Origin: Bacteroidetes bacterium GWF2_43_63
GTDB lineage: Bacteria; Bacteroidota; Bacteroidia; Bacteroidales; DTU049
Direction: 5' to 3'
NCBI GenBank assembly: GCA_001769275.1
Contig: MEOQ01000034.1
Span: forward strand, 1 to 64,000
DNA length: 64,000 nucleotides
Under the pieces are notes generated by a model that was given only the letters and a program-made list of their open reading frames with translations, ran no database searches and was not told the DNA's origin. How positions within the stretch are numbered: the stretch's first letter is position 1; the number at the start of each line of letters is the position of its first letter. The translations under genes were made by a program, and so were the position numbers. This document shows, piece after piece, positions 18,016-19,890 of this stretch.

Positions 18016-18142
18016 CGGAATTTATAGCCAATAATTTTGGTGCTAAATTAAATAAAACTTTGCTTGGCAAATACTCTTTTTTTTTAAAACGGGAAAACGC
18101 TCAATCCGAATGCATATACAGCTGCATCCGATTTCCACATTC

Positions 18143-18330
18143 TCTAAAGACAAAAGATAAAAATATAAAGACAAAAGTGTAAATTGAAACGTGATCATCT
18201 AATATTCCCACATACGCCGCAGGCGCCACATCTGCGATTGCGTCACGTTTCACGTGAAGCAGCACATTTCCGCATTATCGCATCAAATTTCGCCTTTCGT
18301 ATTTCTGATTTCTTCCGCTGCGGCGGATTC
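18143..18330 (+). repeat. Dispersed intergenic repeat B, copy 1
   Basis: Contains AAGACAAAAGATAAAA (18147-18162), identical to 61543-61558. The same order of further words follows in both copies: AAAAGTG, GATCATCT, TTCCC, CACATTT, CATTATC and TTTCGTATTT. Both copies lie upstream of a plus-strand gene. It also contains TCACGTTTCACGTGA (18243-18257), the exact reverse complement of a palindromic block at 43958-43972. Confidence 0.65.
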
Positions 18331-18398
18331 AGAGTTCATGATTCGATGTTCCCTTCACCCTTCAGATCTAAAATCTAAAATCTGATTTCTCAAATCAC

Positions 18399-18410: not shown

Positions 18411-19103
18411 ATGCAACCTCTCATTCTCTGGCAGGACGAATACGCGCTCGCAGTGAACAAGCCCAACAACGTGCTGGTTCATCATTCCGATTATTCCGGT
18501 ATTGAAGGAGAAAAATCGTTGCTAGAACTTTTAAAGGATTTGGGAATCCCCCGCGTATATCCGCTCCACCGGCTCGATAGAAAGACATCTGGTATTGTAT
18601 TGCTTGCAAAAAATCGAAGCGATGTTGCTTCATTTCAGAAATTATTTGATGAACAGAAAATCCGGAAAACCTATCTGGCTCTGCTTCGCGGACATGTCGA
18701 TCCGGCGGGGATTGTCGATACACCCGTGCGGAACGATCGCGGAAATTATCGCGAAGCACTGACGCACTATCGCTGCATTGATCATTACGAGCTGAATGTA
18801 GCCGTTGAACCTTACGAAACATCCCGCTACAGTCTGGTCGAAATGGAACCCAAAACCGGACGATTACATCAGTTGCGTGTGCACGCCAATAAAATTGCAC
18901 ATCCGATCATTGGCGATCATAAACACGGAAACCGGCATCACAACCGCCTTTTCGCCGAACAATTTTTACTGCCGGATTTATTTCTGCATGCAAATGAATT
19001 GCAATTTCTACATCCTTTTACGAATGAAGAAATAATCATCAATGCTCCACTTCCGGCTTTCTGGGCTCGCTTCGATGAAATCAGAAAAGAACTGAGCATC
19101 TAA
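18411..19103 (+). CDS. RNA pseudouridine synthase, RluA/TruC family
   Basis: 230 residues, the short form of the family without an S4 domain. Converts a uridine in tRNA or rRNA to pseudouridine in the cytoplasm. The catalytic Asp is in HRLDRKTSG (about residue 55), followed by LLAKNRSDVASF and the substrate-site motif GRLHQLRVHANKIAHPIIGD. Length and the start (LILWQDEYALAVNKPNNVLVH) best fit TruC, the tRNA-Ile/Asp U65 enzyme, but I cannot separate it from short RluA types by eye. Single gene, divergent from DUF2279 and followed by a large palindromic element. Confidence 0.9.
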   Translation: MQPLILWQDEYALAVNKPNNVLVHHSDYSGIEGEKSLLELLKDLGIPRVYPLHRLDRKTSGIVLLAKNRSDVASFQKLFDEQKIRKTYLALLRGHVDPAGIVDTPVRNDRGNYREALTHYRCIDHYELNVAVEPYETSRYSLVEMEPKTGRLHQLRVHANKIAHPIIGDHKHGNRHHNRLFAEQFLLPDLFLHANELQFLHPFTNEEIIINAPLPAFWARFDEIRKELSI

Positions 19104-19126
19104 AACAACGTTAAGTTAGTCCACAG

Positions 19127-19343
19127 TTACACAGAGTTACTCAGAGGTCTCACAGAGTTCCACCGAGTGTAAATTAAGCAAAAGCCGTTTTTAAAAACAC
19201 AACGTAGTTGTGTTGATCAATTACATCAAAGCGAATTTGAAAGCGAGCTTTCAGAATTCGACATGTTGTAATTGATCCCGGCTTTTGCAAAGTTAAATTT
19301 ACTCTGTGTGACTCTGTGCGCACTCGGAGATACTCTGTGTTAC
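19127..19343. repeat. 217-bp nested imperfect palindrome (MITE-like)
   Basis: Outer arms 19127-19187 and 19279-19343 are imperfect inverted repeats of ~62 nt containing repeated CACAGAGT / ACTCTGTG words and sharing GCAAAAGCCG at their inner ends. Inside are: a perfect 8-bp hairpin AACACAAC-GTA-GTTGTGTT (19196-19214); a perfect 11-bp pair GATCAATTACA (19215-19225) with TGTAATTGATC (19267-19277); and a central 13-bp stem with one bulge (19232-19244 with 19247-19260). The whole can fold into one long branched hairpin. No coding frame is present. It lies between the stop of the pseudouridine synthase and the cyclophilin promoter. Confidence 0.85.
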
Positions 19344-19426
19344 TACAATTCCGGCTGTTTCCAGTTGAGTTAAATGCGTTGCCCCATTGTCTAAGTGGCA
19401 GTTCTCATAGATGTTCAATTAATTCG

Positions 19427-19455: not shown

Positions 19456-19890
19456 ATGAAAGCACTGATCAATACCGTGAAGGGCACCATGAAAGTAGAA
19501 TTCTACGAAAACGACGCGCCCAATACCGTTGCCAACTTCGTTAAGCTCGCCAAAAGCGGCTTCTACGATGGCCTGAATTTTCACCGTGTTCTTCCCGATT
19601 TCGTTATCCAGGGCGGTTGCCCAAACGGAACAGGCGCCGGCGGTCCGGGTTACAGCATTAAATGCGAAACCAGCGGCGGCAATCAGTATCACGATCGCGG
19701 TGTTCTTTCCATGGCGCATGCCGGAAAAGATACCGGTGGCTCACAGTTTTTTATCTGTCATAGCCGCACCAATACATCACATCTCGACCGTCATCACACT
19801 TGCTTCGGCAAAGTAGTCGAAGGTCTCGATGTCCTCGACGCCATCCGTCAGGGCGATGAGATTGAGAGTATAAAAATTATTGAAGAATAG
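19456..19890 (+). CDS. Cyclophilin-type peptidyl-prolyl cis-trans isomerase
   Basis: 144 residues from the ATG at 19456; a TTG 24 nt upstream lies inside the promoter -7 box and is not a credible start. Catalyses proline isomerisation in protein folding. No signal peptide, so cytoplasmic. Family motifs: [48 protein letters not shown] and [15 protein letters not shown]. The catalytic Arg is in FHRV. The usual Trp of the cyclosporin-binding site is His here (HLDRHHT), as in many bacterial cyclophilins of low cyclosporin affinity. Single gene. Confidence 0.95.

Follow-up and report, generated by a model that had tools for sequence, protein, structure and literature searches.

A palindrome with a three-way-junction core in Bacteroidetes bacterium GWF2_43_63 is probably a decayed MITE copy

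The closest described relative, in style, of the intergenic palindrome analyzed here appears to be BrickBuilt (MITEPgRS) of Porphyromonas gingivalis, a Bacteroidetes MITE in which interior direct repeats are predicted to form long stem-loops (PMC4596501). BrickBuilt is built from 23-nt tandem repeats and keeps both terminal repeats in only 4 of 19 copies (PMC4596501), whereas the present element has 10–11-bp words in inverted arms, 10-bp target duplications and a covarying junction core. As with bacterial MITEs in general, the element is short, ORF-less, bounded by terminal inverted repeats and target duplications, multi-copy and intergenic, but its interior, in place of a shortened transposase gene, has a conserved three-way-junction core set between word arms, and a parental insertion sequence (IS) was not found in its genome. 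REP, REPIN and BIME elements are likewise dispersed intergenic palindromes, sometimes mosaic; REPs are palindromes of 20–40 bp linked to a Y1 transposase (PMC3733652, PMC3116915), while the unit here measures ~283–415 bp, its ends are of the DDE type and different sequences flank the local Y1 genes. Inverted CACAGAG/CGCAGAG-type word arms are also shared with the loci of two ORF families, GxxExxY (PF13366) and the four-helix-bundle 23S rRNA intervening-sequence protein (PF05635), although the element described here contains no ORF.

The window, a stretch of 64,000 nucleotides at the start of contig MEOQ01000034.1 (assembly GCA_001769275.1), carries the element between an RluA-type pseudouridine synthase gene (18411–19103) and a cyclophilin gene (~19456–19890), both assigned through Pfam. 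A first-pass annotation made from the sequence had described a nested palindrome at 19127–19343 that encodes no protein. The palindrome is present there, with a predicted RNA fold for 19110–19360 of -98 kcal/mol, where shuffled sequences average -54.7 (z -9.5; matched by 0/200 shuffles), and a DNA fold for 19105–19387 with a z of -10.5 that no shuffle equalled; no ORF occurs at this copy. Those coordinates delimit the palindrome and fall short of the full element, which spans about 19105–19387 on the forward strand, as judged by folding and by alignment of terminal repeats to other copies, and which begins 2 bp past the pseudouridine synthase stop codon. All of the parts named in the first-pass annotation were recovered: the inverted word arms (CACAGAGT/ACTCTGTG), a perfect 8-bp hairpin (AACACAAC-GTA-GTTGTGTT), an 11-bp pair (GATCAATTACA/TGTAATTGATC) and an apical stem (GAATTTGAAAGC/GCTTTCAGAATTC). 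The left arm (19130–19167, forward strand) reads CACAGAG, CTCAGAG, CACAGAG, CACCGAG at ~10-bp spacing and the right arm (19301–19343, forward strand) repeats ACTCTGTG at 10–11-bp spacing. Between them, folding added a 10-bp closing stem that had not been named, GCAAAAGCCG/CGGCTTTTGC, which turns the centre into a three-way junction. This core (19178–19289, forward strand; 104 bits under the covariance model) is composed of P1, the closing stem (19178–19187 with 19279–19288), P2, the 8-bp hairpin (19196–19214), and P3 (19215–19277).

The ends of the window copy are unequal. The right terminal inverted repeat (19370–19387) was found on the minus strand as ATGGGGCAACGCATTTAA in a pattern search allowing ≤2 mismatches, while the left exists only as a degenerate ACAACGTTAAG (19105–19115, forward strand) that pairs with the right repeat in the DNA fold, in a flank weakly similar to the ends of other copies; no clear target duplication is visible at this copy. 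The subterminal segment at 19344–19387 (minus strand) aligns locally with the left end found in other copies, scoring 91 against the left end of copy C12 and 72 against its right end, where 95% of shuffles score <29. The segment is closer to the left than to the right end, implying that the palindrome is flipped relative to it. The window copy is decayed, with a core inverted relative to its better-preserved end.

A BLAST search with 19127–19343, the comparison proposed by the first-pass annotation, returned 36 matches at ~20 places in the element's own genome (3.98 Mb, 51 contigs), and most of these relatives sit in a larger transposon-like unit of ~350–415 bp with terminal inverted repeats of 18–20 bp (CAGGGTCAACGCATTWAA-type). 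Comparison of flanks identified ends common to the copies, CAGGGTCRACGCATTAAAC... on the left and ...TTTAAATGCGTTGRCCCTG on the right, which form an inverted pair, and a search with this end pattern yielded 15 matches in each of the forward and reverse senses, where a reversed-pattern control gave 2 and 2. Both ends are kept, 346–414 bp apart, in six copies (C12, C14, C26, C28, C38 and C45); terminal repeats are not clear in several divergent copies (C40b, C6, the C31 pair and C18). The six copies are bordered by target duplications, perfect over 10 bp in C26 (CAGTAGCCAG, 10/10) and C38 (CTAATCAATT, 10/10), imperfect at exactly 10 bp in C14 (9/10), C28 (8/10) and C45 (8/10), and matching at 12/13 in C12. 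Terminal repeats combined with 10-bp duplications are the typical footprint of a DDE transposase. On its terminal repeats, duplications, size and missing ORF the unit would be classed as a MITE, one of the options raised in the first-pass annotation, and it is quite probable that the feature in the window is a decayed copy of such a non-autonomous DNA transposon. An autonomous partner with CAGGGTCAACGCATT-type ends was not apparent, as the 51 contigs of the assembly contained no IS-length end pair. The DDE transposase search covered PF13808, and an ISAs1-type mover was set aside as the genome encodes no PF13808 protein. A comparison through the cyclophilin gene yielded no orthologous empty site: G003 keeps the cyclophilin orthologue (88% identity) and the valS side, with a different upstream neighbour and no adjoining pseudouridine synthase gene.

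In several copies (L018, L022, L016, L026 and L147) one arm holds an additional small hairpin of GGAATTTAATCCGC..GCGGATC type, which makes the elements mosaics of palindromes. Separately, at least five copies have an apparent IS within their word arms (L015 in C43, L021 in C29, L026 in C22, L063 in C9 and L075 at the end of C26). Its three left junctions directly follow a CTCTGTG-type word (ACTCTGTG, ACTCAGTG or ACTTTGTG) and its two right junctions fall two bases ahead of ACTCTGTG; this IS, the body of which is missing from the assembly, apparently targets the words of the arms.

A covariance model built from 21 core sequences matched ~24 cores in the element's own genome and, within the same genus, ~9 in G001 (Bacteroidetes bacterium HGW-Bacteroidetes-6; core-bearing contig PHDB01000016.1) and 1 in G002; G003, G004 and G005 gave no match. 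The flanks of the G001 and G002 cores differ from those in the element's own genome. Broader searches added little: a strict scan of 295 genomes of the order, scoring 12 candidates per genome, matched G000 alone, a deeper scan of 34 family and order genomes gave one weak AT-rich match in G028 that was judged to be chance, and an exact pattern, run over ~85,000 species genomes, matched solely the HGW-Bacteroidetes-6 locus. Viral matches were discarded as chance, the core being missing. Within the searches made, the largest of which was of limited sensitivity, the predicted core was found only in its own genus.

The core comprises ~112 nt enclosed by CACAGAG/CTCTGTG arms. An alignment of 30 copies from three genomes had 93.8% of paired cells intact against a shuffled mean of 79.8%, double-sided compensatory change in 28 of 40 pairs (shuffled mean 16.4) and 146 cells with double changes (shuffled mean 38.4), values reached by 0/500 shuffles. 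Fitting of the alignment to the structure and relatedness among the copies tilt these figures in its favour, and the shuffle counts overstate significance for the latter reason. Sliding one strand by a single column drops pairing to ~42%, and this collapse, together with the copies in G001 and G002, makes the three-way-junction structure of the core secure. The palindrome is multi-copy and strongly covarying, and not the accidental, single-copy sequence without covariation that the first-pass annotation had allowed for. Sequence is almost invariant in P1 (AAAAGCC/GGCTTTT), P2 (ACACAAC/GTTGTGT) and the P3 apex (AAGC/GCTT), whereas the P3 stem varies freely in sequence and keeps its pairing. Selection on an RNA strand should tolerate G-U far more than A-C. 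Among the non-Watson-Crick cells, G-U (36) and A-C (26) are similarly frequent (p=0.25; pair columns 21 against 19) in what is a low-power test, and conservation therefore looks to act on DNA and not on a transcript. What is maintained is most likely the shape of the core as folded DNA, either a cruciform or a hairpin on single-stranded DNA at replication.

These observations bear on the other options of the first-pass annotation, an untranslated structured RNA or a terminator-like element. A transposon-borne structured RNA, where the core is transcribed and acts as a regulatory or other RNA and the ends merely spread it, would account for the compensatory change, the almost invariant junction and apex motifs and the stable fold. 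The option is weakened by the lack of a clear G-U excess, by the core matching no Rfam family at a threshold as loose as E<10 and by the varied orientation of the copies relative to adjoining genes, and it is judged unlikely. A role as terminator, or as another 3'-end structure, for the pseudouridine synthase gene would suit the start of the element just beyond that stop codon, and yet the genomic placement of the other copies speaks against it. All 14 mapped copies are intergenic, with no ORF ≥90 aa interrupted or overlapping, and they lie between divergent genes in 8 cases, tandem genes in 6 and convergent genes in none; the 8-to-0 division has a two-sided probability of 0.008 by our own arithmetic if both arrangements were equally likely, a value tempered by the usually greater length of divergent spacers. 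With no convergent copies and 8 of 14 between divergent genes, where neither gene ends, a terminator role is very improbable. Bacteroidetes-type promoter motifs were not present within the copies at consistent positions. Slighter still is the prospect of a REP/RAYT system in which a Y1 (HUH) transposase moves the palindrome. The genome has three Y1_Tnp genes and the element is both palindromic and intergenic, but the flanks of those genes contain other hairpins in place of the core and CACAGAG arms, and 10-bp target duplications with terminal repeats are not known as features of IS200/RAYT. Two of the Y1 genes (L038 and L039) are flanked by hairpins of their own (e.g., CCCGACCGTAGGTCGGG) and probably belong to a separate REP system.

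A further alternative concerns the origin of the interior and so overlaps with the MITE explanation, which concerns the present unit. Here the interior would be a word-palindrome element of the GxxExxY kind, a PD-(D/E)XK-like nuclease, that has lost its ORF; spread of the element would normally come from the nuclease acting on its arms or its core, with the CAGGG ends as a secondary host. Across 18 core loci, all left word matches are forward (CACAGAG, CACAAAG, CGCAGAG or similar) and all right word matches reverse (CTCTGTG, CTTTGTG, CTCTGCG or similar), with some loci lacking a word match on one side, and several G001 loci have CGCAGAG/CTCTGCG arms. It is within such CGCAGAG arms that two same-orientation G001 cores bracket a GxxExxY ORF (C89:32763-33116), and a second GxxExxY ORF (C112) lies ~160 bp from a core; for three GxxExxY ORFs and ~7 core loci spread over 4 Mb, our own post hoc arithmetic puts the probability of two such neighbours by chance at the order of 1e-5. 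Moreover, in the order the sequences on the two sides of a GxxExxY ORF often show more mutual complementarity than mismatched flanks do (median score 30 compared with 21, 25 loci), with p<0.01 at about half of the loci. Against this origin, no GxxExxY ORF lies within or next to the window copy or the other copies in its genome, whose two GxxExxY ORFs both lack an adjoining core, and the amplified copies have DDE-type ends and duplications. Nor are complementary flanks specific to GxxExxY, as they also occur at four-helix-bundle ORFs (35 against 20 for mismatched flanks at nine loci of the same genome, six of the nine above the 95% level of mismatched flanks). Taken together, the GxxExxY origin is a tentative and rather doubtful proposal, even if the arms-plus-core may be an ORF-less derivative of GxxExxY-type elements, a direction of descent that we infer. 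More speculative, and improbable at present, is the extension in which GxxExxY nucleases run a new type of mobile element and have the core and word arms as their DNA substrate. The enzyme would recognize the core when folded, in single-stranded or cruciform DNA, and ORF-less copies such as that in the window would be non-autonomous relatives later hitched to a DDE transposon.

Under the favoured explanation of a decayed MITE copy, a DDE transposase acting in trans would recognize the terminal repeats, move the unit and duplicate 10 bp of target, and would now be missing from this genome or from its assembly. The interior cargo would be the long palindrome, with CACAGAG/CTCTGTG arms closing on the three-way-junction core, and the likely basis for upkeep of the core would be protein recognition of the folded DNA along with replication-linked repair in which one arm serves as template for the other. 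The arms-plus-core are probably older than their capture by the terminal repeats, because in sister species they occur in different contexts, among them one that surrounds a GxxExxY ORF. This would be a MITE interior kept across sister species as a branched, folded DNA shape, with double-sided compensatory change and no clear RNA-type wobble, and it would link GxxExxY ORFs, which form a common family lacking a clear function, with that shape. It also suggests that many GxxExxY and 23S-intervening-sequence-type four-helix-bundle ORFs sit within locus-specific inverted word repeats, and gives both groups of proteins a concrete candidate DNA substrate. No published account of palindromic flanks at GxxExxY ORFs was found in the literature searched, which lay mostly outside subscription papers.

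Word palindromes look like a wider phenomenon in which the window element is one amplified, ORF-less case. CACAGAG-word palindromes without the junction core are present in other genomes of the order, G021 (L043, L045, L048 and L051) and G033 (L046 and L047), with 10–11-bp spacing and short, simple centres, and some of those in G021 seemingly lie within inverted repeats beginning TAGTGTTAGAAAGAAAAC. The four-helix-bundle ORFs were considered as a coding form of the element and rejected, with CACAGAG arms around the ORF at 0/9 loci. Several of these loci (L029–L035) instead have inverted repeats of short words that are specific to each locus (GGCGTAAGGC, GATGTGCTGATATG, GACAAAAGATAAAAGG and GAACACCGAACATGG, among others). 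Short word repeats resembling those around four-helix-bundle ORFs also occur in the window itself, upstream of the pseudouridine synthase gene, at 18140–18185 (AAAGACAAAAGATAAAAATATAAAGACAAAAG) and 18362–18395 (ATCTAAAATCTAAAATCTG).
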